Source: a virus
Reading direction: 5' to 3' (one strand)
DNA length: 64,000 bases
IMG/VR virus record: IMGVR_UViG_3300009130_001466
Coordinates: 48,802 to 112,801 of that record
Both the position numbers and the translations under genes were made by a program. Each line of letters starts with the position of its first letter. The stretch's first letter is position 1. Below the pieces are notes generated by a model that ran no database searches, had not been told where the DNA came from, and worked only from the letters and a program-made list of their open reading frames with translations. Below are positions 4,381 through 44,925 of the stretch, one piece after another.

Positions 4381-5413
4381 AATAATAATTATCAAACATT
4401 GCGTCGGATTTAAATTTAATTACTTCATCTAAATTTAATGTAATGTCGTTACAATCTTTATAAACAAATTTATGTTGCAGAGAATTACAAACAAAAAACT
4501 TTCTTTGGTTGTATAATTGAGGCAAGTTTAATTCAAAAGGTTTGTAATCTTCGTGTTTTTCTATAAAATGAATTATTGATCTAGTTTCTTTATTGCTCCT
4601 GTTTTTTAGTGTTAGGGTTAGCCCTTTTATTAATCCAGCATTTGCATCTGTTTTCGCAAAAGAAGAAAAAGAATCTTTTAATTTTACAATTTCAGATTTT
4701 TTGTCTGTAGAAATGGAAACGTTATCGTCCAAATCATAAAAAAATGATCTAGTCCATTTTGAGGCGGTTCCAGTTGGACTATTTGAAGTATTTGATGTAT
4801 GATCGCCGCTACAATAATAAAATCTTTCAATCCTATTGGCCGCTGTATCGAAATTGCTATGCCCTCCAGTATTGTATTGTGGAAAATAAATAACATCAAA
4901 TTTTTCATAATCACTTGAAGACGACCATCCAGTTTGAAAATTTCCAGTATTTAAATACGAAGATGTTGCCCAGTTCAAAAAAGAAGAATATCCATTTTTT
5001 GAAACAACCAAATCTATATCAAAAAGTCCGTCATGAAACCTAAAGTCGTAATTTTCTACATAAAGTTCATTTATTCTTTGATACACATCTCCAGTCGGGA
5101 AAGCTAATTCAACATTATTTATATCAAGTTGATTAAAATCAAAAAACCCCAAACTATTTCTACTAACGCCCTCCAAAAAACTCAAAAAAGATTTAGCCTC
5201 CTCTTCTGTTTTGTTAGAGAATTTTAAATTAAATTTTATTTCTGTCCCGTTTAAACCTTTAGAGAATTTTTTATAATGGTTGTCTGCTGTATAAAAATGC
5301 ACATTTTTATTTTCAAAAGACACGGTGGAGCCATATTCTGGGACAAACGAGTTAGCCTCGATAGTGCCCGTTACGTTATTGTCTCTATCGTAAGTTGCTA
5401 ATACTTCGCTCAT
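4370..5413 (-). CDS. Distal/minor tail protein with internal duplication and possible carbohydrate-binding insert
   Basis: 347 residues directly downstream of the tape measure. The N-terminal (about 45-115) and C-terminal (about 255-335) parts share a layout: KxFxxGLxxxxxxLxxxNxxxEEAxxxxxFLE, then a hydrophobic FDF/FELNLP segment and a KFVYKDCxD-like end. This resembles lambda gpM-like minor tail proteins in tandem. Between them, about residues 165-230 (DYEKFDVIYFPQYN...FYYCSGDHTS...SKW) look like a small CBM5/12-type chitin/sugar-binding module. A hub or tip protein with a surface-binding insert is inferred. Confidence 0.5.
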   Translation of the reverse strand: MSEVLATYDRDNNVTGTIEANSFVPEYGSTVSFENKNVHFYTADNHYKKFSKGLNGTEIKFNLKFSNKTEEEAKSFLSFLEGVSRNSLGFFDFNQLDINNVELAFPTGDVYQRINELYVENYDFRFHDGLFDIDLVVSKNGYSSFLNWATSSYLNTGNFQTGWSSSSDYEKFDVIYFPQYNTGGHSNFDTAANRIERFYYCSGDHTSNTSNSPTGTASKWTRSFFYDLDDNVSISTDKKSEIVKLKDSFSSFAKTDANAGLIKGLTLTLKNRSNKETRSIIHFIEKHEDYKPFELNLPQLYNQRKFFVCNSLQHKFVYKDCNDITLNLDEVIKFKSDAMFDNYYYDN

Positions 5414-5415
5414 TT

Positions 5416-8400
5416 TTATGACTTATATAAATAGTTTAGAGTTCCCCCACTTCTAGACTCTTCTTGTATCACTGTCGTGACTGCCGATCTGATTCTAGAA
5501 GCAAACTCTCTTTGGTTCTCTGAAGAGCCCTGGCCGCCTTCTTGACTAACTTTGCCATCTTGTATATTGAAAGTAAAATCTGAGTTATTTGTTATTTCGC
5601 CTCCGCCAAGTGCATTACTTCCAGCCTCTGAAGCAACAGGAGAAACTGCTCCTCCATTTTGAAATCCTTGCATTGGGAGCATACCTTTATTTAGGCTAGA
5701 CAGAAAGTCGGTTCCATATTTATCTACCGCAGATTTCTTAACTACAAATTCTCCAGGGGTTAGCATAGCTGGTACTGTATCTGTTCCTCTACCAACTGAT
5801 CCGCCAGCATTAAAGAAACTGAATAAACTACCCAAGCCACCACTCAAACCACCGAGAAGGCTGCTAAATATTCCACCAATTCCGCTCCCTATTCCACCTA
5901 GTCCGCCGAGAAGGCTACTAAATATTCCGCCGCCACCTGCGCCACCACCAAATAAACCTACGAGACTGTCTTTTAGTCCACCAAATATTCCACCAAGTTT
6001 ATCTTTTAAACCTCCGAATAAATCGCCAAATCCGCTTTTTATTTTACTGAAAAAGCCCTCCTGCCCTTCTCCTTCTTTTCCAGTTATACCCTCTAAAGCT
6101 TTTTCTGCTCCGCTAGTGGCTCCTCCACTTATGGCATTAGCTACATCTTGAACAAATAGTGGATTTGTTGGGCTGCTTCCTAGAGCGCCGCCACCTTTTT
6201 TACCTCCACCAAATAAGTCACCAAAAAACCCGCCAACTTTTGAGAAGAGTCCTCCGCCGCTAGCAGCTGCACCGCTAGCAGCTGCACCGCTAGCAGCTGC
6301 GCCGCCAGAAGCTGCGCCGCCAGCAGCGCCAGAAGCTCCCCCTCCGCCGAAAAGACCACCAATAGATGAAAATATATTTTTTTGACCACCGCCCCCAGCG
6401 CCGCCAAAAACTCCAGTTGGGCCTCCACTAAATAAAGTGTTTGTAAATTGATCTGCGGCTTGTTGTAGAAACGCATCCCTAATGAACCCTAAGAAATTTC
6501 TTCCAGCATCGGATAAAGCCTCATCTAAATCTTTGGCCCCGCTTACAGCATCTTTCATAGCGGAACCCAAATTATCACTAAATTGAAGTGGTATATTTTC
6601 ACCAAGCTCATCTTTAAAAAAATCTATATCGTCTTTAACTTGTCCCAATCCTTTGCTAAATCCATCGGCAAATCCTTGCGGTTTATTAAGGTTATTTATT
6701 TCTTGTTGTAATTTTATTTCTTCTAGCTTGTCGTCCAATACTCTTTGCTGAATTTCTGCCTTAGCTACAGCAAGGTCAAAATCGGTTTTGGCTTTTTTAG
6801 ATAGCTCTATACCAGCCTCGGCAAGCCCCTCTTCAATTGAAAGTAAGCTAGCCCCTGCCTTAACCTGGCCCTCTATAAACTCTTTCTGCTTTTCAGAAAA
6901 AACACTGGCATCTGTGATTGATTTTACGTATTCTTCTGTGATTTTGAATTCTTCTTTAGCTCTTTCTATGAGAAATTCCCCCATAGCTATCTCATTTTCT
7001 AGACCCACTTTCCTTACTGTTGTTACAGCTTTAGCTAAATCAAGTTCTTTGCCTCTTATCGCGGATAAAGCTCCTTCTTGAAATATAGTCGCTCCTATTT
7101 CTCCAGGCTTCGTAGGCTCTAACTGCTTTGTTGTGTCAAATCCACCAGCCGCAAATCTTCCTTCGCCTATGCTTTCTTTAAAGCTTTTTTTTGCTGCAGA
7201 TCCAATTACCCCTTTCTCTCCAAAACCAGATGCAGCTATTAATGCTGCATCGGCGGCTTTTTTGGCGGCGGCATCAATCTGCTCAATAGCTTTGATCATG
7301 TTTTCCGCAAACAAAACTGCATTAAACTCCTTCTCGACTGTAGTTCTTGTTGTCCCACGCCGTGGATTGAAAAATTCCTTCTCAACATCTGTGCTGCTCG
7401 CATCAATGATCTTTTGCAACTCGGTTGTGCTCCCAACTTTTGCCAAAGACGCACTCAATGTTTCTTTATCTTTTACTCCTCCAAAAAATCCTTTATTAAT
7501 TCCTTTTAATCCTTTTACTTGTTTTTCAAGTATATCACCTATATCTGCATCCGCTTCAACATTTAATTTTTTTGCAAGTTCAGCCTTTTCACTTGCTCTT
7601 TTTATCTCCGCAACGAAAGAAGACTTCAAAGCGGCGGAAGCTTCTATTGATCCAGCTGATAACTCTCCCAGATCAATATTTTTAAGTGATTCGTTTAGTT
7701 TTTCGAACCCTGTTTTTGTTTTTGTTAATTCTAGAACAAGCGGAGCCACCACTGCTCCCACAGCTACAGCAGTACCAATTCCAGGCAAAGCTCTACCAAC
7801 TCCAGCTATGCCTCTACCCAGGCCACCCCTAGCTCCCCTCAGTTTGCCCTCTGAACCCCTCATTATTCCACCTGTTCTCGGACTCCGAAAGGTAGCTAAC
7901 TCTGTTCCAAAACTAGACAACTTAGCCCCAACATTTTCAAGCGGCCCTTTCAATAAGCTTAATCCACTTAATAATGATGCGGCTAAACTCACCTCACTGA
8001 TAAACTTCCCAAGACCACTTTCGGCTCCACTAAAAGCAGAGCTTAAGAAAAATAAAGCAGTAGACGCTCCTAGTGCAGCATTCGAAAATTTATCTACAGA
8101 CTCTGTAGCTCCTGCCGTTCCTCTTTTTGCAAAATTAGGTATCCTGCCAGTTGGCTCATCTCTTGTATTAGTGACGGCAAGACCTTGTGGATTTTGAGAA
8201 TTGCGAAGCTTCCCGCTTTGATTTATTCTTATTTGATTGATTGGAAGGCCAGCAGCTTGCTCTCTTGCAACTGCTTCATCCAAAGCTCCACGAGCAAAAT
8301 TTGGGATATAACCTCCAGCACTTCTTCTGTTAAATTCTGCTGTAACGGCTTTTCTACTAGGTCCAGCAACTCTGCTTTTTTGTAGTTCCCCTAAACCAGT

Positions 8401-33264: not shown

Positions 33265-33270
33265 TTTTAA

Positions 33271-33524
33271 CACACCCAGTGATCCTCTTCTTCATTGAAT
33301 GATCATAAAGGCTGGGTACATTTTACACAGGCGGTGTTGAAAGTAGAAACACTGCGTGGGCCAGCGTCCGAGGAAGGCGGAATATCGACTCGGTTAATTC
33401 TATGGCATTTTCGTGACCGTAACTGCAAAACGCGAAGCGCATAGAAGCATGGTGATCGATTGGTAATCGTAAGCCTAGTTCCACAAAGACCGTAATAGGA
33501 GTAACGACCTATCCTGTGTATTAA
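33271..33524 (+). ncRNA. Structured non-coding segment between tRNA-Asn and tRNA-Lys
   Basis: About 250 bases with no gene. Stems visible: CCCAGTGATC (33275-33284) with GATCA and CTGGG (33301-33305, 33312-33316); GTGTT/AACAC (33334-33352). Density of complementary blocks is like an RNA, not a spacer. It may be the 5' part of one large RNA that continues after the two intervening tRNAs. Confidence 0.45.
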
Positions 33525-33684: not shown

Positions 33685-34272
33685 CCTTGACCCCTAATGC
33701 CTCTCATCTAAGTAGCCTTGATGATATGATGCACACTATAGGTAAAAAAAGCAGAGAACGTACCGCTCTGTCATAGGTCGTCAAATCGGTATCGTGAGGA
33801 GCAAACACGTTAACGTATCCAGCAGTGCAAGTGATGTAGGCTATTGCTCACTGCTGATCAATTTAATAGTTCTGATACTTTTCAAGAAGTATTGGGTAAT
33901 GATCCACCATTCCAAATAGGGGGAAACTAAAAAAGTAGTGTAGAACGTACTAGGATATGAGGCTTGTGGAATAGGCGTTGATTGAGCGGTATGCTGTTAG
34001 ATCGATCATTTGTCATACAAGGTAACTTCTCTACGTCATCTATTGGGTTAACTATTATCAAAGTAGACCTGCCATGCCTCTGAATGACGAAATTCGGACC
34101 TCAAGTGCCGTGAGAGTCGAAAGACTCCTATATCATTCAAGCATAATTTGGCGAAAAAGTATAAGAATCTGATCAAATCTTATATTGGTGTTTAGATTGA
34201 GTTTGTAATTTCTCTGCGACGGCGGGGGTTGATAATGAGGATAAGGACTGCGTAGCGGTCGACTCCCTCACA
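33685..34272 (+). ncRNA. Large structured RNA candidate in tRNA cluster (GOLLD/ROOL-like by context)
   Basis: Nearly 590 bases between tRNA-Gln and the next tRNA with no plausible ORF. Clear helices: CAGAG/CTCTG (33752-33770), CAGCAGTG/CACTGCTG (33820-33856), ATACTT/AAGTAT (33875-33892), GAGTC-GAAA-GACTC (34114-34127), TATAAGA/TCTTATA (34160-34184), GAGG/CCTC closing a GC-rich stem (34237-34269). GNRA-type and purine-rich loops are present. Phage GOLLD and ROOL RNAs are this size and lie beside tRNAs. Assignment to either is by context only; it could be a new class. Confidence 0.5.
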
Positions 34273-34278
34273 CTTTTA

Positions 34279-34361: not shown

Positions 34362-34433
34362 GTCGCAGTGTTTAAGGTAAACAAGTGGTCTCCAAAACCG
34401 CCAAAGGGGATTCGATTTCTCCCTGCGGCGCCA
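34362..34433 (+). tRNA. tRNA-Trp (CCA)
   Basis: Acceptor GTCGCAG/CTGCGGC, anticodon stem GTGGT/ACCGC with loop CTCCAAA, T arm GGGGA/TCTCC, CCA encoded. Confidence 0.82.
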
Positions 34434-36268: not shown

Positions 36269-36277
36269 CACCGAAGC

Positions 36278-36357
36278 CCCTAAGTCGCTGACAGTCAACG
36301 ACTTACGGGGCCGAGGCCGCCCCGCGCGCGTAAGTGCTTGATACTCAACGACTTACG
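36278..36357 (+). repeat. Composite palindrome R1
   Basis: Hairpin TAAGT-loop-ACTTA, then about 22 bases of pure G/C, then hairpin CGTAAGT-loop-ACTTACG. The left stem is extended by GCCCC/GGGGC. Confidence 0.85.
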
Positions 36358-36402
36358 ACACGAAAAAAACTTTAAAAAACTTAAAAAAACTTTGCGATAA
36401 GC

Positions 36403-36430
36403 TTGACTTGCCACTTCTTTAACCTATACT
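36403..36430 (+). promoter_or_regulatory. Class I promoter
   Basis: TTGACT, 16 bases, TATACT, six bases to the ATG at 36437, preceded by A/T-rich tracts that could act as an UP element. Confidence 0.7.
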
Positions 36431-36436
36431 GTAAGC

Positions 36437-36616
36437 ATGATTAAATATAACGAATTGCACGACCTCTCTTGCCAATACTGGGATGCTCTTGACCGCCAAG
36501 ATTATGACTGGGCTGACTTCATCGACTCATGCCTTGAGCGTGAAGGCGTGGAGCGTCTTCCTCGCGAAGATTGCGAAGAGCCCATCCTTGACCTTTCTCC
36601 TCTCGAAGTAAACTAA
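36437..36616 (+). CDS. Small acidic cassette protein
   Basis: 59 residues, very acidic (DLSCQYWDALDRQDYDWADF). Unknown. Followed five bases later by the next gene, so likely a two-gene unit. Confidence 0.6.
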   Translation: MIKYNELHDLSCQYWDALDRQDYDWADFIDSCLEREGVERLPREDCEEPILDLSPLEVN

Positions 36617-36620
36617 CCAA

Positions 36621-36956
36621 ATGACGATTATGACAAAAGCAATACTAGTAGACCCTTTTCTCCCCGCGATCTCAACTGTTGAGGTTGACGGGTTCGAAGA
36701 TATCCAACGCATGATCGATTGCCGCTGCTTTACTTGTGTGAGGTTTCCCGATGGCAAGCATGTCGCATACATTGACGACGAAGGATTAATCAATGGTACG
36801 CAAAGAGGCGTTAGGTTTATCGACAAGATTTACCCCGATGCCTTAGCTGGTCGCGTTCTTATCCTTGCCGACGACGGGCAAGGTGGCGACGCTGACTGCG
36901 AGCTGACAGGCGCTGATATCCAAGCGATGATAAAAGGAATCGTGGAATTCGGATAA
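36621..36956 (+). CDS. DUF3846-like protein
   Basis: 111 residues. The AYIDDEGLING core and the late VLILADDGQGGDAD segment resemble the DUF3846 family found in phages and plasmids; function unknown. Second gene of the unit starting at 36437. Another ATG three codons downstream is possible. Confidence 0.45.
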   Translation: MTIMTKAILVDPFLPAISTVEVDGFEDIQRMIDCRCFTCVRFPDGKHVAYIDDEGLINGTQRGVRFIDKIYPDALAGRVLILADDGQGGDADCELTGADIQAMIKGIVEFG

Positions 36957-36970
36957 AAAAGCTTGACACC

Positions 36971-37049
36971 CGTAAGTTGCTGATTATCAACGACTTACGG
37001 GCCCAGGGCCGCCCGCGCCGCGCAAGTGCTTGATAACCAAGGACTTGCG
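36971..37049 (+). repeat. Composite palindrome R2
   Basis: Left hairpin CCCGTAAGT/ACTTACGGG; G/C centre starting GGGCCC; right hairpin CGCAAGT/ACTTGCG, in which both stem arms changed together relative to other copies. Confidence 0.85.
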
Positions 37050-37086
37050 TAATCTAAAATAAAAAACAAAAAAGTTTCCAAAACGC

Positions 37087-37114
37087 TTGACAACCACACA
37101 AAATTTCCTATTCT
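37087..37114 (+). promoter_or_regulatory. Class I promoter
   Basis: TTGACA, 16 bases, TATTCT, eight bases to the ATG at 37123. Confidence 0.65.
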
Positions 37115-37122
37115 ATAAGATA

Positions 37123-37305
37123 ATGAAAGACACAAACAAATTAATCACCGAAGTAATCGACCACCTAACTTTTTCTAGCTATGCTCACAACCGCAAGCTA
37201 AATCCCGAAATCTCACCTTCTCGTTGGGGCAAGATCTACGGAGAAAAAGAAGTTGTTTTAATGGAAAAAACTTTCCAAAATACCTTGACAACCGCAAAAA
37301 AATAA
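37123..37305 (+). CDS. Small cassette protein, paralogue of 35419-35598
   Basis: 60 residues; shares VIDHLTxxSY and SRWGKIYGE with the 35419 gene. Its 3' end also carries the TTGACA of the following promoter, so the gene-plus-promoter unit was duplicated as a block. Confidence 0.65.
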   Translation: MKDTNKLITEVIDHLTFSSYAHNRKLNPEISPSRWGKIYGEKEVVLMEKTFQNTLTTAKK

Positions 37306-37312
37306 TCATACT
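37285..37312 (+). promoter_or_regulatory. Class I promoter overlapping a coding 3' end
   Basis: TTGACA, 16 bases, CATACT, seven bases to the ATG at 37320. Confidence 0.65.
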
Positions 37313-37319
37313 GTATAAC

Positions 37320-37478
37320 ATGAACATTAGAAAAGAAATTAAAGTCTCATCAATTCTAACCGACGAAGTATTGCGTCAACAAAAAGAGTTAATCTCTAAA
37401 GGCTTTCAGCACGTCAATAACATTAAAAATGGTCGTCTTTCGGATGGTTACACAATGATTTTTGTTAAACAAGGGTAA
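37320..37478 (+). CDS. Small cassette protein
   Basis: 52 residues (VSSILTDEVLRQQKELISKG ... YTMIFVKQG), basic/helical. Unknown. First of three closely spaced genes. Confidence 0.6.
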   Translation: MNIRKEIKVSSILTDEVLRQQKELISKGFQHVNNIKNGRLSDGYTMIFVKQG

Positions 37479-37482
37479 TAAT

Positions 37483-37632
37483 ATGAAAATTTGGGAACTT
37501 TTAACTCTGGTGCTTTTTGGACTCATTCTTGGGTTGGCAATGTTTGTCGGGCTTAAGCTCGACGACAAAGCTCAACAAACGAAAGAAGCGACATGGGAAC
37601 GCTTCGAGGAAATCGACAACGCAATCAAATAA
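37483..37632 (+). CDS. Small membrane protein
   Basis: 49 residues with one N-terminal transmembrane helix (LLTLVLFGLILGLAMFVGL) and a charged tail. Four bases after the previous gene. Confidence 0.5.
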   Translation: MKIWELLTLVLFGLILGLAMFVGLKLDDKAQQTKEATWERFEEIDNAIK

Positions 37633-37633
37633 A

Positions 37634-37771
37634 ATGAAAATAACTATTGACAAAACAACTGCAATTTGCTTGACAGTCGCGGCTTGCACTTACTTCATCG
37701 CAAATAAAATTAGCTGGTTTCAAAAAATGTTTGACACTGTCTCAGGGGTTGCGATAAACTCAATCATGTAA
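37634..37771 (+). CDS. Small membrane protein
   Basis: 45 residues, one hydrophobic segment (AICLTVAACTYFIAN). The stop codon is built into the left arm of palindrome R3. Confidence 0.45.
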   Translation: MKITIDKTTAICLTVAACTYFIANKISWFQKMFDTVSGVAINSIM

Positions 37772-37845
37772 GTGCTTGAATATCAACGACTTACGGGGCC
37801 AGGGCCGCCCGCGCCGCGCAAACCCTTGATAAACAACGACTTACG
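37768..37845 (+). repeat. Composite palindrome R3
   Basis: Two TAAGT/ACTTA-type hairpins around a G/C centre; the right copy has diverged on its 5' arm (CGCAAAC). Confidence 0.8.
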
Positions 37846-37869
37846 CAACTAAAAAAAAGAAAAAGACTC

Positions 37870-37897
37870 TTGACAACCGCACAAAAATAACCATCAT
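37870..37897 (+). promoter_or_regulatory. Class I promoter
   Basis: TTGACA, 16 bases, CATCAT, seven bases to the ATG at 37905. Confidence 0.6.
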
Positions 37898-37904
37898 ACA
37901 AACT

Positions 37905-38237
37905 ATGAAACCACTAAGCAAAACACTGACAGAACTAGGGATTGCATTTAGCTTTCCTATTGAGATTAAAGACGCTAATGGCAAGCCGACTTACCGAGAG
38001 TACAGCGATGGCTACTGGTATAAGTTTGAGTATGATGACAATAATAAAATAACTTACTGCAAGAATAGTCATAACTACTCGTATAGGTGTCAGTATGATG
38101 ACAATGGCAACAGGAATTACTTCGAGGACAGCAATGGTCTCCGAGAAGGTGCGCCACGTCCAGCCAAATCAACTAATACCTGCGAAGGCAAGGTTGTCGA
38201 AGTGGACGGGATCAAATATAAATTAACAGCACTATGA
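37905..38237 (+). CDS. YD-repeat-like small protein
   Basis: 110 residues with aromatic-acidic repeats YSDGYWYKFEYDDNN, YSYRCQYDDNGN and FEDSNG, similar in style to RHS/YD repeats in some phage and bacterial small proteins. C-terminal EVDGIKYKLTAL strand. Function unknown. It overlaps the next start by four bases. Confidence 0.5.
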   Translation: MKPLSKTLTELGIAFSFPIEIKDANGKPTYREYSDGYWYKFEYDDNNKITYCKNSHNYSYRCQYDDNGNRNYFEDSNGLREGAPRPAKSTNTCEGKVVEVDGIKYKLTAL

Positions 38238-38665
38238 AAAAATTAATCTTACTAACATTCGCCATCTGCGCATCAATAGCACAAGGCGCGACATTAACTG
38301 ATTTAATTGTTGCTTTAGAAAAAGTGGAAAGCAATTGCAATCCTTCCGCTTATAACGAAAGCGAAAAAGCGTTAGGCTCTCTTCAGATTAGACCTATCAT
38401 GTTGGCTGATTATAATCGCATCTATGGCACGAATATAAAGCACAAGCAAATGTCAAACCGCTTGACTTCCCATAATATCGCAATCGGAATCTTTCGTCAC
38501 TATGAAAAGTATATCAAACGTAATGGCGAAAAGTTAAATGCAAAACATCTTGCCTTCGTTTGGAATGGAGGAGGATCAGCTTGGAAACGGGTTGCAAATC
38601 CGAAAAGCGACAAAAAGCAAAAAAATCTAGAAATTTACTGGACAAAGGTCTCAAAGCATCTGTAA
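38234..38665 (+). CDS. Exported SLT-type lytic transglycosylase-like protein
   Basis: 143 residues. Signal peptide at 1-18 (MKKLILLTFAICASIAQG). ALEKVESNCNPSAYN with candidate catalytic Glu32, then ALGSLQI and LAFVWNGG match the lysozyme-like SLT fold. Probably cleaves peptidoglycan in the periplasm, aiding lysis or cell modification during infection. Coupled to the upstream gene by an ATGA overlap. Confidence 0.65.
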   Translation: MKKLILLTFAICASIAQGATLTDLIVALEKVESNCNPSAYNESEKALGSLQIRPIMLADYNRIYGTNIKHKQMSNRLTSHNIAIGIFRHYEKYIKRNGEKLNAKHLAFVWNGGGSAWKRVANPKSDKKQKNLEIYWTKVSKHL

Positions 38666-38689
38666 GTTACTGGTATTCAACGACTTACG
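38661..38689 (+). repeat. Single hairpin R4 of the composite family
   Basis: One TGTAAGT-loop-ACTTACG hairpin whose left arm contains the stop codon of the transglycosylase-like gene; no G/C centre. Confidence 0.75.
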
Positions 38690-38723
38690 CAACAAAAAAA
38701 CTTTAATCTTTTTTCAAAATCGC

Positions 38724-38751
38724 TTGACAGCCTAACCTTTTTTCTTATTCT
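38724..38751 (+). promoter_or_regulatory. Class I promoter with short leader
   Basis: TTGACA, 16 bases, TATTCT; the ATG at 38778 is 26 bases further, so this one is not leaderless. Confidence 0.55.
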
Positions 38752-38777
38752 TTTTTAAGCATTAACAACATCACTTT

Positions 38778-38972
38778 ATGATTGATAAACGAACAGAAAA
38801 ACAAATCAAGAGGCTCTTCTCGGTGGTAGTAGACGACTCACTCATGGACGCTGACTTTGAATATGTCCAAGCAGCTATTGCTTGCGTTCGTAAAGAGTGT
38901 GATCAAGTTGAAGAATACATGAAGGAGATGGATAGACTTGCTGATGAAGATTCTATATCTAACACAATATGA
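38778..38972 (+). CDS. Small acidic cassette protein
   Basis: 64 residues, helical (TEKQIKRLFSVVVDDSLM). Unknown. The stop overlaps the next ATG (ATGA). Confidence 0.55.
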   Translation: MIDKRTEKQIKRLFSVVVDDSLMDADFEYVQAAIACVRKECDQVEEYMKEMDRLADEDSISNTI

Positions 38973-39061
38973 GACAATTCACCAACGGCGACACGGGCGA
39001 GGTCAAGACTATAGCTGAGGTCTTTGCCCTAATCCGCGAAGAGAGAGAAGGAGAGCCGTAA
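38969..39061 (+). CDS. Very small protein
   Basis: 30 residues (MRQFTNGDTGEVKTIAEVFA...), overlapping the upstream stop. Its stop codon lies in the left hairpin of R5, as for other cassettes, which supports it being real. Confidence 0.4.
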   Translation: MRQFTNGDTGEVKTIAEVFALIREEREGEP

Positions 39062-39135
39062 GTCTCTGACAGTCAACGACTTACGGGCCCAGGGCCGCGC
39101 CCGCCGCGCAAGTGCTTGATATACAACGACTTACG
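39058..39135 (+). repeat. Composite palindrome R5
   Basis: Left hairpin CCGTAAGT/ACTTACGG, G/C centre, right hairpin CGCAAGT/ACTTACG (one mismatch). Confidence 0.8.
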
Positions 39136-39169
39136 CAACAAAAAAACTTTAATCTTTTTTCAAAATCGC

Positions 39170-39197
39170 TTGACAACCTCACCAAAATTCTTATTGT
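39170..39197 (+). promoter_or_regulatory. Class I promoter
   Basis: TTGACA, 16 bases, TATTGT, seven bases to the ATG at 39205. Confidence 0.65.
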
Positions 39198-39204
39198 TTT
39201 AATT

Positions 39205-39387
39205 ATGACTACTACTGATTCCTTCTCTGATTCTTCTTTTGACCCTTGGGCTGACTTGTCCGAGGCCGAGTTCGCTGAGTTCGAAGCCGATATGTTGCGC
39301 GAGCAACAGGAGCGTGAAAGCGCCGAGGCGATGGCTCACGAAGCTCAGCTTGAGCGCGAGCTTATGGAAAGAGCCGACTTCCGCTAA
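39205..39387 (+). CDS. Very acidic small protein
   Basis: 60 residues. The ATG at 39205 is placed by the promoter, rejecting a longer start inside palindrome R5. Glu/Asp/Ala-rich (WADLSEAEFAEFEADML). It could be a DNA mimic or a protein-binding inhibitor, but nothing specific is visible. Confidence 0.6.
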   Translation: MTTTDSFSDSSFDPWADLSEAEFAEFEADMLREQQERESAEAMAHEAQLERELMERADFR

Positions 39388-39393
39388 GGGGTT

Positions 39394-39472
39394 GCGCAAG
39401 CCCTTGACAGTCAACGACTTACGGGGCCGAGGCCGCCCCGCGCGCGTAAGTCCTTGATACTCAGCAACTTAC
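39394..39472 (+). repeat. Composite palindrome R6
   Basis: Two hairpins around GGGGCCGAGGCCGCCCC-type centre, seven bases after the preceding stop. Confidence 0.8.
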
Positions 39473-39476
39473 AGAG

Positions 39477-39500
39477 GTTCCCGAAATTCATTTCGGGAAC
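39477..39500 (+). terminator. Perfect hairpin, possible terminator
   Basis: GTTCCCGAAA/TTTCGGGAAC with a 4-base loop, directly after R6. No T tract, so termination is uncertain. Confidence 0.5.
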
Positions 39501-39601
39501 ATACATAACTGCTTGATCATTAGATATATACGCTATTTGTCTTGTATTTGCGTTCGATTTGCGTTCGATTTGATTTGGCGCTATTTTTTTTCAAAAAAGG
39601 G

Positions 39602-39629
39602 TTGACTAATGCCCAAAACAATACATAAT
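39602..39629 (+). promoter_or_regulatory. Class I promoter of the structured RNA
   Basis: TTGACT, 16 bases, CATAAT. No ATG follows; predicted start near 39636. Confidence 0.6.
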
Positions 39630-39635
39630 GTAAAA

Positions 39636-40060
39636 CATAATCGTTCTTTAACATTTTACAATTTAGACAAGCGAGTCCTAGAAGCTGGTAGATGAAATTG
39701 CTTTAGTAGGCTACCAAGGTTAAGCAAATCGTTTGTCTCTTATCTAACTCGAAGAAAGCCAGGTAAACAGCCGAGCATGGGGATCTGCTGGCAATGCGTC
39801 GAGGACAGCGTGGGGGTGCGTTGATAAGATTGATTAGTTAAACACCCTCAAGATTTAACCTCGCTTGGATGACGTCTGCCTTAGAAGGGCATCCCCAAGC
39901 CAACTGGATTCGCAAATAGCGAAGAGGGAGTTGCCACTGCTCTGAGGTTTTAACATTTTAAGCGGAGAATTTGAACGCTCGACCTAAACGCCTAAAGGGT
40001 TCACCCAAGCGGAAATGAGTCGAAAGACCGAGAGCGCCAACCAATTGAAACAGGTTATAT
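39636..40060 (+). ncRNA. Large structured non-coding RNA candidate
   Basis: About 425 bases with a strong promoter and no ORF. Helices: AGACAAGCGA/TCGTTTGTCT (39665-39674 with 39729-39738) enclosing an H-type pseudoknot formed by GGTAG/CTACC (39687, 39711) interleaved with TTGCTT/AAGCAA (39698, 39722); CTTATC/GATAAG (39739, 39823); GGGGAT/ATCCCC (39779, 39891); TTCGC/GCGAA (39909-39923). It is not tmRNA (no CCA-ended tRNA-like domain) and has no RNase P signature. Identity unknown. The end is not marked by a clear terminator. Confidence 0.55.
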
Positions 40061-40082
40061 CCGCACCAATCTAAAAAAACTA

Positions 40083-40111
40083 TTGACAAAGCTCAACTTT
40101 TGTGATTTAAT
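40083..40111 (+). promoter_or_regulatory. Class I-like promoter with leader
   Basis: TTGACA, 17 bases, TTTAAT (TATAAT also overlaps at longer spacing). The gene has a leader of about 35 bases. Confidence 0.45.
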
Positions 40112-40153
40112 ATAATCTTAACAATCGAAAATCCAAAACGGAGAAAAGAAAAC

Positions 40154-40405
40154 ATGAAAAACCTAAAACTAAATCCAATCCAAAAAACTCGCCTTGCTAT
40201 TCGTCGCGCTTTCGCTAAGAATAATATGGCTCAAATCACCTACAAGAAAAAGTCTGATGAGACTGTTGGCTCTTATGTCATTGACATGAATTTCATTGAA
40301 GACTTGGGCGATATGTTCAACACCTATTCTTACGCCACTGGCGCGAAGCACAGCGGCATCCGCTCCTTCTATAAAAACCGAATCGAAAAAATTAAACTTG
40401 TGTAG
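40154..40405 (+). CDS. Small basic protein with true ribosome binding site
   Basis: 83 residues, basic (RLAIRRAFAKNN; YKNRIEKIKL) with a QITYKKKSDETVGSYVIDM strand pair resembling WYL/SH3-like ligand modules. Unlike neighbours it has an ordinary leader and GGAGAA site. Followed by two terminators. Unknown function. Confidence 0.6.
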   Translation: MKNLKLNPIQKTRLAIRRAFAKNNMAQITYKKKSDETVGSYVIDMNFIEDLGDMFNTYSYATGAKHSGIRSFYKNRIEKIKLV

Positions 40406-40428
40406 CGTGATTGGTTAACGTGTGTGTG

Positions 40429-40468
40429 CCGCCTCGTCTTGTGGTTAGGGCGAGGCGGCTTAAATTTC
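40429..40468 (+). terminator. Intrinsic terminator, first of twin pair
   Basis: GCCGCCTCG/CGAGGCGGC stem-loop with T-rich tail, preceded by AACGTGTGTGTGCCG. Confidence 0.75.
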
Positions 40469-40498
40469 TTTTGTTGTAGTCGTGTGCAACGTGTGTGT

Positions 40499-40536
40499 GC
40501 CGTCTTACCTTTTGTGTATGGGGTAAGGCGGCTTTT
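40499..40536 (+). terminator. Intrinsic terminator, second of twin pair
   Basis: GCCGTCTTACC/GGTAAGGCGGC stem-loop followed by TTTT, preceded by the same AACGTGTGTGTGCCG as the first. Confidence 0.75.
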
Positions 40537-40567
40537 CGCTATATGGATCAAGAGTTCTGTAAGTCCT

Positions 40568-40646
40568 TGATGGTCAACGATTTACGCGGCGGGGGCCAGC
40601 GCAGACCCGCAAGTGCTTGATAATCAACAACTTACGAATTCAAATA
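40568..40646 (+). repeat. Composite palindrome R7
   Basis: Two TAAGT-type hairpins around a G/C centre (GGCGGGGGCCAGCGC), following the twin terminators. Confidence 0.8.
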
Positions 40647-40671
40647 AATTTAAATAAATTTTTAAAAAGGG

Positions 40672-40700
40672 TTGACTCGTCGAATTAAATAATACATTAT
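40672..40700 (+). promoter_or_regulatory. Class I promoter
   Basis: TTGACT, 17 bases, CATTAT, six bases to the ATG at 40707. Confidence 0.6.
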
Positions 40701-40706
40701 ACTAAT

Positions 40707-40997
40707 ATGAAAATGACAAAAACAACTACAGAAAACCTCACCCTTGAAAACTCATTCGGAACAATCCGCGAAGAAAATGGAGTCCAGATGAATATATCCG
40801 TGCATGTCCAGCCAAACAAAAATTATGGTTCGTTTGAAATGTATGACGAAGAAACTGGAGGTGAAGAATGGTATGCCGAAGGAGGTCTTTGGTTTGAGGG
40901 CAAGGAACTGGTTGACTACGATGGAGTTTTTGCTCTATCTCCGTCAATTATTCAAATCTTAGAAGACAAAGGTTATGATGCTTCTTATGCAAAGTAA
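40707..40997 (+). CDS. Cassette protein
   Basis: 96 residues, acidic, beta-rich (MNISVHVQPNKNYGSFEMYDE; GGLWFEGKELVDYDG). Unknown family. Leaderless start predicted. Confidence 0.6.
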   Translation: MKMTKTTTENLTLENSFGTIREENGVQMNISVHVQPNKNYGSFEMYDEETGGEEWYAEGGLWFEGKELVDYDGVFALSPSIIQILEDKGYDASYAK

Positions 40998-41000
40998 TAC

Positions 41001-41029
41001 TTGACTAATCACAAAAAATAATACATCAT
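41001..41029 (+). promoter_or_regulatory. Class I promoter
   Basis: TTGACT beginning just after the previous stop, 17 bases, CATCAT, six bases to the ATG at 41036. Confidence 0.6.
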
Positions 41030-41035
41030 ATCAAC

Positions 41036-41377
41036 ATGAAGAAAATAACCTTATCACTACACCGCAGCGAAGATGAACCTTTTGTTCAGAAATGGGAGGT
41101 CGCTCGCAAATGTGTTTTTGCTGTTCGGCTGAACGTAGAGCATATCGAATATCCACATATTCCGTCAAAGCTTGCTGAGCTTTTGTTTCACGTTACTAAC
41201 GCGCCGACCGAGCTTATCACTAAAACACACGAAAAAATTCTTTTGGCTCTGTGGGAAAACTGCTCGGACAAGAGAACCTTTCACTCTACAAGTGTCGGAG
41301 ATGTCGTTAAGATCTGTGATTGTAACGGACACCCAACAACTTTAATGTGCAAATCAGTTGGATGGGAGGAGCTATAA
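41036..41377 (+). CDS. Cassette protein
   Basis: 113 residues, Cys/His-containing helical protein (KWEVARKCVFAVRLNVEHI; CSDKRTFHSTSVGDVVKIC). Unknown. First of a three-gene unit; its end overlaps the next start. Confidence 0.6.
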   Translation: MKKITLSLHRSEDEPFVQKWEVARKCVFAVRLNVEHIEYPHIPSKLAELLFHVTNAPTELITKTHEKILLALWENCSDKRTFHSTSVGDVVKICDCNGHPTTLMCKSVGWEEL

Positions 41378-41556
41378 TGACAATCGATCAAATAAATTCA
41401 TACTGCTACGAACATTACGAAGACGGCGGCGATATTGTAGTAGAGTGCATGGAAGATGAAGAGAAGCTCAAACGTTTTGAAACTTTGGAAGACCTCAGAC
41501 AATACATTGAGATACGCCAAGAGCATCGCCGAGAAATTGAATCAACCATTTGGTAA
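41377..41556 (+). CDS. Small acidic protein
   Basis: 59 residues from the ATG at 41377, which overlaps the previous stop and follows GGGAGGAG. Acidic helices (EDGGDIVVECMEDEEKLKRF). Unknown. Confidence 0.6.
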   Translation: MTIDQINSYCYEHYEDGGDIVVECMEDEEKLKRFETLEDLRQYIEIRQEHRREIESTIW

Positions 41557-41557
41557 T

Positions 41558-41905
41558 ATGAAAGTAAGAGTATACAGAAACCTGCACAAAAAATGTTTTT
41601 CGGTTCAAGAGAAGACAGAAAAAGGCTGGCGAGTCAAACGCCACGCCACTTCTATCGTGCTTAAAAACGCCTCGTTTCGTGTTTCTGAAGCTGGACGCAA
41701 AAGAGTGTTAAAAGAAAAAAGAAAAAATGTTCACGCTTTTATAGAGGGCTATGAAATAAAAAACAGCACACAAAAACACAAGTGCGAAGTTTGTGTTAGC
41801 TACAATCCTTACAAGTGTGACCACTTTGAAACTAACTCCCACGATCCAGTTTTTTTTGCTCGACTCGCTCATGTTAATCTCTCAGGGTGCAAAATCCATA
41901 AGTAG
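41558..41905 (+). CDS. Conserved-looking phage protein with Cys/His cluster
   Basis: 115 residues from the ATG at 41558. Begins VRVYRNLHKKCFSVQ and contains SFRVSEAGRKRVL-KKNVHAFIEGY, a pattern seen in small phage proteins of unknown role; then CEVC-x8-CDHFE, a possible metal site. Third gene of the unit starting at 41036. Confidence 0.6.
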   Translation: MKVRVYRNLHKKCFSVQEKTEKGWRVKRHATSIVLKNASFRVSEAGRKRVLKEKRKNVHAFIEGYEIKNSTQKHKCEVCVSYNPYKCDHFETNSHDPVFFARLAHVNLSGCKIHK

Positions 41906-41975
41906 TTGATATTCAACGACTTACGCGGCCGCGGCCGCCCCCGCGTCGTAAGTCCTTGATATTCAACGACTTACG
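41897..41975 (+). repeat. Composite palindrome R8
   Basis: Left hairpin overlaps the preceding stop region; centre CGGCCGCGGCCG is a perfect palindrome; right hairpin CGTAAGT/ACTTACG. Confidence 0.85.
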
Positions 41976-42051
41976 CAACTTTGACTGCTCTGGGGCTCAA
42001 GTTCCGTGCCAACTTTTTTTCTAATTATTTTTTTATTTTTTTGGTAAACGC

Positions 42052-42080
42052 TTGACACCACATTGATTTTCTCATATGAT
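42052..42080 (+). promoter_or_regulatory. Class I promoter with leader
   Basis: TTGACA, 17 bases, TATGAT; about 43 bases of AU-rich leader before the ATG at 42124. Confidence 0.55.
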
Positions 42081-42123
42081 GTAATCTCACAATTAAATAA
42101 TAATACTATATAAAGTTAATACT

Positions 42124-42924
42124 ATGAACATCGAAAATACACACCCTGCAAATCAAGAACTCCTTCGCCTTAACGTGTGCGAATCAAAACAGTGCGACTT
42201 CTCTAAGGTTCAAGCTGTCTCTACTCCCGACGCTTCTGATCGTTGGACTCCTATCGCTCACGATGCTTTGGTTGGTCAATTCCGCGAGTCTATCGGCAAC
42301 ACTGATCTTGAGATCGTGAATGAGCATCACGCGTTGCACCGCTATGGTCAACGCTACTTTGGCTTGTTCCAAGTCAAGGGCGTAGGTCGCAAGCATGGCG
42401 ATGACGTTGGCACTGTTATGTGTCTTCGCAATTCTCACGATAAGGCTTTCCGCGCTGGCATCTCTGCTGGTGATGCGCCTTTCGTTTGCTCCAACTTGAT
42501 CTTCTCTAACGAGATCGTGCTTGGTCGCCGCCATACTACTCACATCATGCGCGACTTACCGCAAATCATTTCACGTGCGATTGGTCAACTTATGGAGTCT
42601 TGGATTACTACGGACAACCGCATTGACTCCTACAAGTCAACCGAGATTGATGATCGTGTGGCTCACGACTTAATCCTGCGCGGCTTTCAAGCTGGCGCGT
42701 GTGGCAAGACGCAAATTGCTGACATCTTCACACAGTGGCACAAGCCCGAACATGAGAACTTTGAGGGTCGCGACCTTTGGAGTCTTCAAAACGCCTTCAC
42801 GAACGTGTGGAGGGGCAACACGCTCAACACGGCGAACCGCTCAAGCTCGCTCTACTCCGTGCTTGACACCTTCGCGGCTCACGCCAAACCAGTTGAGGGC
42901 GAATTAGTTCTCAACGCTTCCTAA
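42124..42924 (+). CDS. DUF932-like protein
   Basis: 266 residues. LRNSHDKAFRAGISAGDAPF with CSNLIFSNE is the core of DUF932/phage-plasmid-like proteins; function unknown. It is less AT-rich than its neighbours, suggesting high expression, and is the largest cassette gene. It has its own promoter with leader and a good terminator. Confidence 0.6.
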   Translation: MNIENTHPANQELLRLNVCESKQCDFSKVQAVSTPDASDRWTPIAHDALVGQFRESIGNTDLEIVNEHHALHRYGQRYFGLFQVKGVGRKHGDDVGTVMCLRNSHDKAFRAGISAGDAPFVCSNLIFSNEIVLGRRHTTHIMRDLPQIISRAIGQLMESWITTDNRIDSYKSTEIDDRVAHDLILRGFQAGACGKTQIADIFTQWHKPEHENFEGRDLWSLQNAFTNVWRGNTLNTANRSSSLYSVLDTFAAHAKPVEGELVLNAS

Positions 42925-42932
42925 CGGCTCTC

Positions 42933-42960
42933 GCCTCACCCTTCGGGGTGGGGCTTTTCT
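42933..42960 (+). terminator. Intrinsic terminator
   Basis: GCCTCACCC-TTC-GGGGTGGGGC stem-loop followed by TTTTCTTTTT, just after the DUF932-like gene. Confidence 0.85.
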
Positions 42961-42976
42961 TTTTCTGCTTGACATT

Positions 42977-43055
42977 CGTAAGTGCTTGATAATCAACGAC
43001 TTACGCGGCCGCGGCCGCCCCCGCGTCGCAAGTCCTTGGTATTCAACGACTTACG
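42977..43055 (+). repeat. Composite palindrome R9
   Basis: Near-identical to R8: CGTAAGT hairpins around CGGCCGCGGCCGCCCCCGCG. It follows an independent intrinsic terminator. Confidence 0.85.
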
Positions 43056-43145
43056 CAACTTCTTTCACGCGCTGGTCGCTGAGCTTGTCAAGTCTTTTCT
43101 TTAGGTTTTTTTTGAAAAGTTTTTTTAATTTATTTTAAATATCGC

Positions 43146-43174
43146 TTGACTTGCGCGACAAATTCTCAGATAAT
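43146..43174 (+). promoter_or_regulatory. Class I promoter
   Basis: TTGACT, 17 bases, GATAAT, six bases to the ATG at 43181. Confidence 0.65.
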
Positions 43175-43180
43175 GCTTTT

Positions 43181-43888
43181 ATGACTAAACTACTAAACAA
43201 CGGAAACTCGAAAACAATCAAAGGCGAAAAACTTGGATGGACTACTTTTGGTCTACACCTTGCGCCTTTTAACTTGGCTGGCAAAAATGTTTGCGCCCAT
43301 GCTTCGGCTGGATGCGCTGCTGCTTGTCTCAACACTGCTGGACGCGGCGCGATGTCGAATGTGCAAAAATCTCGCATTGCAAAAACACAAAAATTCTTTG
43401 CCGATAAAAATGCTTTCGTATGGCAACTTGCTAAAGAGATTAGCAACGCTGTTAAACTTTCCGCAAAAAAAGACATGAAGCCATGCTTTCGTCTCAATCT
43501 TACAAGCGATCTGCCTTGGGAAAACATAAAAGTTGAATCGCACGGAAAAAAGCTTTCGCTTATGGAGATGTATCCCGATGTGCAGTTTTACGATTATACC
43601 AAGTCTTTTCCGCGTATGCAAAAATATCTAAAAGGTGAAATGCCAAGCAACTATCATCTTACCTTTTCGCGTAGTGAATGTAATGACAACTTAGTTGACT
43701 TGGTTCTCAAGCTTGGCGGAAATGTCGCGGCAGTCTTTCGCAATGAGTTTCCTAAGTCTTGGAAGTCTGTGGAAGTTGTCAACGGTGACGAAACAGACTT
43801 GCGTTTTTTAGATGCGCAAAATAAAATTGTTGGACTTGTGCAAAAAGGACTTGCCAAGAAGGACGAAACAGGCTTTGTTATAGGCTAG
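43181..43888 (+). CDS. GP88-family-like protein
   Basis: 235 residues from the ATG at 43181 (leaderless geometry). Begins LLNNGNSKT and continues FNLAGKNVCAHASAGCAAACL, then LNLTSDLPWENI, VQFYDYTKS, matching the phage gene-product-88 family, which carries a conserved Cys cluster and an N-terminal NGNSK. Function unknown. Followed by small overlapping genes. Confidence 0.6.
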   Translation: MTKLLNNGNSKTIKGEKLGWTTFGLHLAPFNLAGKNVCAHASAGCAAACLNTAGRGAMSNVQKSRIAKTQKFFADKNAFVWQLAKEISNAVKLSAKKDMKPCFRLNLTSDLPWENIKVESHGKKLSLMEMYPDVQFYDYTKSFPRMQKYLKGEMPSNYHLTFSRSECNDNLVDLVLKLGGNVAAVFRNEFPKSWKSVEVVNGDETDLRFLDAQNKIVGLVQKGLAKKDETGFVIG

Positions 43889-43891
43889 TAA

Positions 43892-43954
43892 ATGATAATA
43901 ATTCTAACCCTCTTAATCTTCTTAATGATAACACTCAACCATGAATCCTACTGA
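43892..43954 (+). CDS. Possible 20-residue membrane peptide
   Basis: MIIILTLLIFLMITLN then HESY; entirely hydrophobic, starts four bases after the GP88-like stop and overlaps the next start. Could be chance. Confidence 0.25.
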   Translation: MIIILTLLIFLMITLNHESY

Positions 43955-44147
43955 ACGATATAATCTAATCAAAAAAATCTGTGAAAGCAAAAATCAAATC
44001 AACTCGCACGGGCAACTGCCCACGACCGAAACCGACTTGCAAGACGAATTCTTACGCTTCCAAACTAGCGTCGAACCTCTTGCAACTAAACAAGACTCAA
44101 GGCTATGGCAAAAAAGTTTCTTCCAAAACTTAGTCTTCGGCAGTTAG
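43941..44147 (+). CDS. Small cassette protein
   Basis: 68 residues, mixed charge (NPTERYNLIKKICESKNQI). Unknown. Last 43 bases overlap the next gene in another frame. Confidence 0.45.
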   Translation: MNPTERYNLIKKICESKNQINSHGQLPTTETDLQDEFLRFQTSVEPLATKQDSRLWQKSFFQNLVFGS

Positions 44148-44248
44148 AAAAAACCGTTAGGAAAGGGTTAGGCTTAATGCCTTCCCGCCCCTTTCGCGAC
44201 CGCTCGAAATACAACCGCAAAAACAAACACAAAAAAACGTTAGACTAA
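44105..44248 (+). CDS. Small very basic protein
   Basis: 47 residues, about one third Lys/Arg (KKFLPKLSLRQLEKTVRKG; RDRSKYNRKNKHKK). Possibly nucleic-acid or ribosome binding. It overlaps the previous gene, which lowers certainty. Confidence 0.45.
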   Translation: MAKKFLPKLSLRQLEKTVRKGLGLMPSRPFRDRSKYNRKNKHKKTLD

Positions 44249-44249
44249 A

Positions 44250-44426
44250 ATGAACTACAGTAAAAAATTCGGCTTCTATAATCCTAAAACTAAAATTGCT
44301 CAAGTGTATGACGGCTCCAAGCGCACTCCAACTAATACCGTTGTAAATGGTAAGGTTGGCTTTAGCATACCAAAAATTTTTGTCGGTAAATGCTCGCGAG
44401 CGCAGTTTGATAAACTGATCTCATAA
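44250..44426 (+). CDS. Small basic protein
   Basis: 58 residues (KKFGFYNPKTKIAQVYDGS ... GKCSRAQFDKLIS). Two bases after the preceding gene; stop lies in the first hairpin of R10. Confidence 0.5.
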   Translation: MNYSKKFGFYNPKTKIAQVYDGSKRTPTNTVVNGKVGFSIPKIFVGKCSRAQFDKLIS

Positions 44427-44544
44427 GCGCTTGAGCTTCAACGACTTAGGGATCGGCTAGAATTCCCTAAGTCGCTGGTAGTCAACGACTTACGCGGCGG
44501 GGGCCGCCCCCGCGTCGTAAGTGCTTGATATAGAACGACTTACG
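44421..44544 (+). repeat. Composite palindrome R10 with an extra hairpin
   Basis: Three TAAGT/ACTTA hairpins in tandem, the last two flanking GGCGGGGGCCGCCCCCGCG. Longest member of the family. Confidence 0.85.
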
Positions 44545-44590
44545 CAACTTGCTCGCAGGAGACAGAGCGGGCTTTTTTTAAAAATAATAG

Positions 44591-44618
44591 TTGACAGAAC
44601 CATTTTTTTCGTTAGACT
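44591..44618 (+). promoter_or_regulatory. Class I promoter
   Basis: TTGACA, 16 bases, TAGACT, six bases to the ATG at 44625. Confidence 0.65.
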
Positions 44619-44624
44619 GTAGTC

Positions 44625-44819
44625 ATGATAATCAAAAAAGATGACCTCCTCCGCCCCACTCGCAACCACGCTCGCACCGTCAAGGTAATGTTTACCTACT
44701 CTTGTGGGAAACTCGCCATGATCTACTGCCCTACTGTTGGGCGTGGCGATGTCAGGCACATCGACCTCTACGAAGGTTGGGCTATCGAGCGTGACGGGAA
44801 TCACGTCGGGACTGTGTAA
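44625..44819 (+). CDS. Small cassette protein
   Basis: 64 residues, beta-rich (ARTVKVMFTYSCGKLAMIYC). Unknown; its stop is inside palindrome R11. Last gene of the plus-strand array. Confidence 0.6.
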   Translation: MIIKKDDLLRPTRNHARTVKVMFTYSCGKLAMIYCPTVGRGDVRHIDLYEGWAIERDGNHVGTV

Positions 44820-44892
44820 GTCCTTGCTAGCCAACGACTTGTGGGGCGGGGGCCGCCCGCGACGCGCAACTCCTTGATATACAACAACTTAC
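44815..44892 (+). repeat. Composite palindrome R11
   Basis: Two hairpins with G/C centre (GGGGCGGGGGCCGCCCGCG); end of the array. Confidence 0.8.
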
Positions 44893-44925
44893 AAAACTTC
44901 AGTCTCAATATAGTCTCATTTAATT

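Follow-up and report, generated by a model that had tools for sequence, protein, structure and literature searches.

A marine phage locus in which exchangeable small RNAs may follow a borrowed ribosomal boxA leader

A leader-trailer helix longer than 17 bp is described as critical for precursor 16S rRNA (PMC10250234), and the boxA consensus of rRNA operons is given as GYTCTTTAANA for gamma-proteobacteria (PMC5725501). A boxA also precedes CRISPR arrays (Stringer et al. 2020, as cited in PMC7862264). Among phages, the non-coding RNAs GOLLD and ROOL are often found near tRNA islands (PMC12286853). We found no paper in the open-licence literature that links boxA to operons of phage tRNAs or other phage RNAs, and the boxA target list in PMC5725501, as stated there, did not consider non-coding RNAs.

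Here, we analyzed an untranslated stretch of a marine phage, located at 39602-40064 of the window (the whole 64,000-nt stretch of DNA under study) and carrying its own sigma-70-type promoter sequence. We propose, with a probability of roughly two in three, that it is an operon of small stable RNAs which phages exchange, led by an rRNA antitermination signal borrowed from the host.

The locus and its leader

The virus record spans 112.8 kb and includes tape measure, terminase, RIIA, and clamp-loader genes as well as a tRNA cluster. The best matches of the terminase among named proteins are only ~25% identical, so the host cannot be inferred. The RNA unit is present in a single copy in the whole record. 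An ORF search found no frame of more than 44 aa overlapping the region from 39602 up to 40154, in line with the original prediction, which had described a large, ORF-less, structured RNA with its own promoter. BLAST of the stretch against phage records returned three weak matches, each covering at most 9%. Rfam covariance models, the search proposed in that prediction, gave no match at gathering or permissive thresholds, including those for GOLLD, ROOL, tmRNA, RNase P, group I introns, and tRNA; by covariance model, the stretch is therefore not a tmRNA, RNase P, or group I intron, in agreement with the original prediction. An Rfam search of the L201 unit likewise gave no match. The features of the locus are as follows.

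39602..39629, + strand: promoter-like sequence TTGACT-16-CATAAT, conserved in L201 and L222
39642..39653, + strand: boxA CGTTCTTTAACA, an exact GYTCTTTAANA match, at the same place in all four family members
39666..39737, + strand: module A1, a 9-bp closing helix around an H-type pseudoknot, with no independent homologue
39739..39828, + strand: module A2, with closing helix CTTATC/GATAAG (39739/39823), defined by sequence and fold, with no independent homologue
39857..39949, + strand: module A3, a 28-bp three-way junction, alone behind the leader in L222, with 28/28 pairs kept
39949..39960, + strand: second copy of TTTAACATTTTA, where the L201 junction between leader and module B falls
39962..40064, + strand: module B, with closing helix GCGGA/TCCGC, alone behind the leader in L201 and 97.7% identical there
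40154..40405, + strand: downstream ORF of 83 aa, which transcription from the RNA unit may reach; kept in L231 without the RNA
40428..40459, + strand: terminator-like hairpin of 14 pairs

The predicted promoter is present, and its match alone is not significant, because the region holds 2 promoter-like sites and shuffles give 2.5. The boxA, which the original prediction had missed together with the module boundaries, starts 12 nt past the -10 box, and the RNA behind it is free of ORFs longer than 44 aa. Its core, GTTCTTTAACA (start at 39643), fits GYTCTTTAANA. This is the only exact boxA match in the 64-kb window, where 1.2 are expected by chance, so that the match by itself proves little; its position and recurrence do more. 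There is no exact boxA in the tRNA cluster of the window. The first copy of TTTAACATTTTA (39647-39658) overlaps the boxA.

The leader is kept twice in L201 and once in L222, each time ahead of different RNAs. Across the screened loci, once duplicates and sites under open frames of at least 90 aa were left out, the motif [CT]G[CT]TCTTTAA[ACT]A had seven non-coding sites: four lie at RNA-unit promoters of the window's family, two are rRNA leaders included for comparison, and one is a stray. With up to three mismatches allowed, the leader pattern was detected in 3 of 46 related records, all of them RNA bearing, and a reversed-pattern control gave 0. An extended leader pattern matched only twice in a bacterial genome collection, both times in rRNA leaders of Lonepinella koalarum ~230 nt upstream of 16S rRNA; this test leans towards rRNA leaders because the pattern contains AGACAA, which is present in the window and also occurs in rRNA leaders. 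An exact 19-mer of the leader had no match in bacterial genomes.

Several other sequences in or shared with the window were noted. A 93-nt repeat that consists of two imperfect palindromes of 28 bp (TAAGT...CAACGACTTACG), 50 nt apart, occurs in 10 or more copies within 36272-44900; the copies sit between small-gene cassettes and flank the RNA unit on both sides (39388-39480 and 40551-40643). The tRNA cluster has two long tRNA-free gaps (33265-33524 and 33685-34278) with no listed ORF of at least 60 aa and no Rfam match at gathering thresholds. A tRNA-like Rfam match at 34362-34430 (36.7 bits), not called by ARAGORN, is perhaps an eroded tRNA gene. The sequence ATCGTTCTTTAACATTTTA recurs in another phage (L220 and L221, 225-243), ahead of an ORF whose product, judged by eye, resembles a capsid protein.

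RNA modules and their exchange among relatives

One relative, L169, is 100% identical to the window over the stretch. In L201, the leader is joined to window position 39948 onward, so that module B comes directly after it; farther on, another promoter and boxA leader precedes a different RNA (module C). In L222, which is one contig with L204, L215, and L230, the leader is joined to window position 39850, making it leader plus A3 only. The near relative L231 keeps the ORF at 40154 and the bases just before it, and small protein genes replace the RNA unit. The RNA unit is thus replaceable, which bears out the earlier idea of a cassette, and it is itself built of replaceable parts. Given that modules are gained, lost, and swapped behind the same leader, we regard the leader as the fixed element and the RNAs as its exchangeable cargo.

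The same relatives bear on the reading of the stretch as a structured 5' leader that regulates a downstream protein gene, through a riboswitch or through boxA-mediated repression of the suhB type. The ability of boxA to repress a downstream gene is reported for suhB (PMC5725501), and A3 of L222 is closely followed by an ORF with no visible promoter of its own. However, the genes behind the unit differ among the window, L201, and L222, and L231 has the downstream gene of the window without the RNA, so we consider such regulation unlikely.

Comparison of A3 between the window and L222 revealed 16 substitutions, 6 of them in paired columns, and all 28 of the 28 pairs stay standard. In two of these, both partners differ (columns 10/47, G-C to A-T, and columns 26/36, C-G to T-A). 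When the same number of changes was placed at random, 0.14% of 20,000 trials broke no pair and 4.8% contained two double changes, figures that are optimistic because the structure was drawn by eye from the same two sequences and then scored. The covariation that the original prediction had put forward as its check is present in this one module, from two sequences; in module B it says little because the copies differ at few positions (97.7% identity). Models of A3 and B, run against 74 and 59 loci, matched only their own source sequences. A pattern scan with the A3 tail found, beyond L169 and L222, three other matches without the rest of the module, and matches to a 15-mer of the A1 pseudoknot shared little beyond the 15-mer, except in L169. 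The module families appear to be new.

Preservation of the A3 pairs between relatives that differ at 16 sites also counts against a decaying tRNA operon, in which the leader would be intact and the tRNA genes eroded to functionless RNA. This reading draws on the fact that the same leader heads tRNA operons elsewhere and on module C of L201, in which one hairpin (GCAGTTCGATTCTGC) resembles a T arm and another an anticodon arm. Yet there is no tRNA match in the stretch, or in the L201 unit, even at a permissive threshold, and we judge decay to be quite improbable.

Modules A1 and A2 are set apart solely by their own closing helices. In A1, the helix GACAAGCGA/TCGTTTGTC (39666/39729) encloses a pseudoknot in which GGTAG/CTACC (39687/39711) is combined with TTGCTT/AAGCAA (39698/39722). 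Among 3,000 mononucleotide shuffles of this 73-nt piece, a closing helix of at least 9 pairs arose in 0.43%, such a pseudoknot in 4.3%, and the two together in 0.03% (1/3,000; a post-hoc test). The pseudoknot-bearing helix of the original prediction is therefore found, as is its CTTATC/GATAAG pairing, which closes A2. Folding energies are ordinary both for the whole stretch (z, 0.38, equalled or bettered by 69 of 100 shuffles) and for single modules (z, -1.5 to +1.1).

That the stretch is one large ornate RNA of ~425 nt folding as a unit, like GOLLD or ROOL, is very improbable: a single promoter, the lack of an ORF, and the lack of an obvious terminator between modules agree with it, but A3 and B each occur without the remainder behind the same leader, no Rfam family matches, the energy of the whole is ordinary, and the predicted pair GGGGAT/ATCCCC (39779/39891), which would join two modules found apart in a relative, is not conserved, because ATCCCC reads GTTCCC in a relative. 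From the large structured RNA first proposed, the promoter-like site and the ORF-less stretch remain, and the single 425-nt molecule gives way to a leader with separable modules.

boxA leaders in other viral contigs

A scan of viral contigs for a promoter followed by boxA returned at least 119 stretches and at least 89 distinct sites followed by 300 nt or more of sequence. Among the matches listed, 60 of the 89 distinct sites have a same-strand tRNA gene within 1.5 kb; for 57 the distance is at most 150 nt, and for 48 at most 40 nt. For random positions drawn from these loci, the proportions are 20.7% (1.5 kb) and 7.4% (150 nt), and for those in other loci 1.3% and 0.2%. A complete scan with a reversed boxA gave 44 stretches and 12 distinct sites, none of the 12 with a tRNA. 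The promoter and boxA leader thus heads many phage tRNA operons. In rRNA leaders, boxA is followed by AATTT, and this sequence is mostly kept at the 63 distinct tRNA-near sites among the matches listed (A at the first base in 60/63 and T at the third in 57/63); it lies outside the scan pattern, and the 63 sites were counted without the 300-nt filter. Contigs with this leader come mostly from metagenomes.

The 89 listed sites include 4 of the window's family, none with a tRNA. Many of the 29 listed tRNA-less sites are probably chance matches, because they look like coding sequence. Five of the 29 (L396, L404, L412, L368, and L389) have helices of 19 to 22 bp that close units of ~115 to 300 nt and start between 4 nt before and 5 nt after the end of boxA; these loci score 18 to 21, against a maximum of 12.3 among 15 shuffles per locus. 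L396 (4662, - strand) and L404 (9560) hold boxA-led untranslated arrays, in which units closed by ~19-bp helices carry T-arm-like hairpins; a permuted tmRNA match occurs elsewhere in L404 and in L425. In L412 (1280), L368, and L389 (- strand), boxA is followed at once by a near-perfect helix of 22 positions, which closes an untranslated RNA of ~190 and 295 nt, like a small pre-rRNA.

We saw no promoter and boxA leader in tRNA-bearing stretches of seven named phages, and the device is thus not universal; two of the seven stretches (L429 and L430) begin inside or beside the tRNA cluster, so that the operon start may lie outside. L436 has three matches to the boxA motif, none in the promoter and boxA form; one lies between genes, ~270 nt ahead of a tRNA. 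Similarity searches for named phages with the tRNA-operon leader matched mostly tRNA genes and not leaders. Proteus phage PM135 (L435; Demerecviridae) has five exact boxA motifs in ~1.4 kb (4798-6195), some behind promoter-like sites, that adjoin the genes for its A2 and A1 proteins and do not precede annotated RNA genes.

A broader proposition, for which we see the balance as even, is that many phage lineages have adopted the antitermination signal of host rRNA as an all-purpose leader for untranslated transcripts, behind which they exchange cassettes, including tRNAs, small folded RNAs, and, at some loci, units that a long leader-trailer helix closes as in rRNA; the window would then be one node of a large and largely undescribed set. 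If true, this would account for how phages spare long untranslated RNA operons from Rho termination, phage tRNA expression would depend on host NusB and SuhB, and promoter plus boxA would serve as a sequence handle for unannotated phage RNAs.

Proposed mechanism and known systems

For the exchangeable operon of small stable RNAs, we envisage that host RNA polymerase would start just downstream of 39629 and that the nascent RNA would expose boxA (39642-39653) almost immediately. If it acts as in rRNA, boxA would bind NusB and S10 (NusE) and load an antitermination complex, which would shield the untranslated transcript from Rho. The modules would then fold, and the transcript would be cut at or near the closing helices to yield separate, presumably stable RNAs A1, A2, A3, and B. 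What would follow promoter and boxA is inferred from rRNA and, as described in PMC7862264, from the boxA that precedes CRISPR arrays. Judged from sequence, the leader would be a new use of a known host element, and the RNAs seem to fit none of the families tested. To assign them to host takeover or counter-defence would be a guess.

GOLLD and ROOL differ from the modules in being much larger single RNAs, and neither matches the stretch in Rfam. The T4 RNAs rnaC and rnaD are, like the proposed products, small phage RNAs, and lie at the end of the T4 tRNA operon; the T4 stretch differs in having no boxA, and the models of A3 and B, the two modules modeled, did not match it. The boxA of CRISPR arrays likewise stands on a long untranslated transcript other than rRNA, whereas the window is phage rather than host and has no CRISPR repeats or spacers. 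The five other boxA-led phage loci resemble pre-16S rRNA in layout. The window's family does not: its best score for a leader-trailer helix is 7.6 to 9.6, within shuffles, and a helix exceeding 17 bp is absent. With rRNA operons, the window shares an exact boxA consensus just past the promoter of an untranslated transcript, and, over its full length, the leader has its closest bacterial-genome matches in rRNA leaders; the difference lies in the payload, which in the window consists of small phage RNAs.
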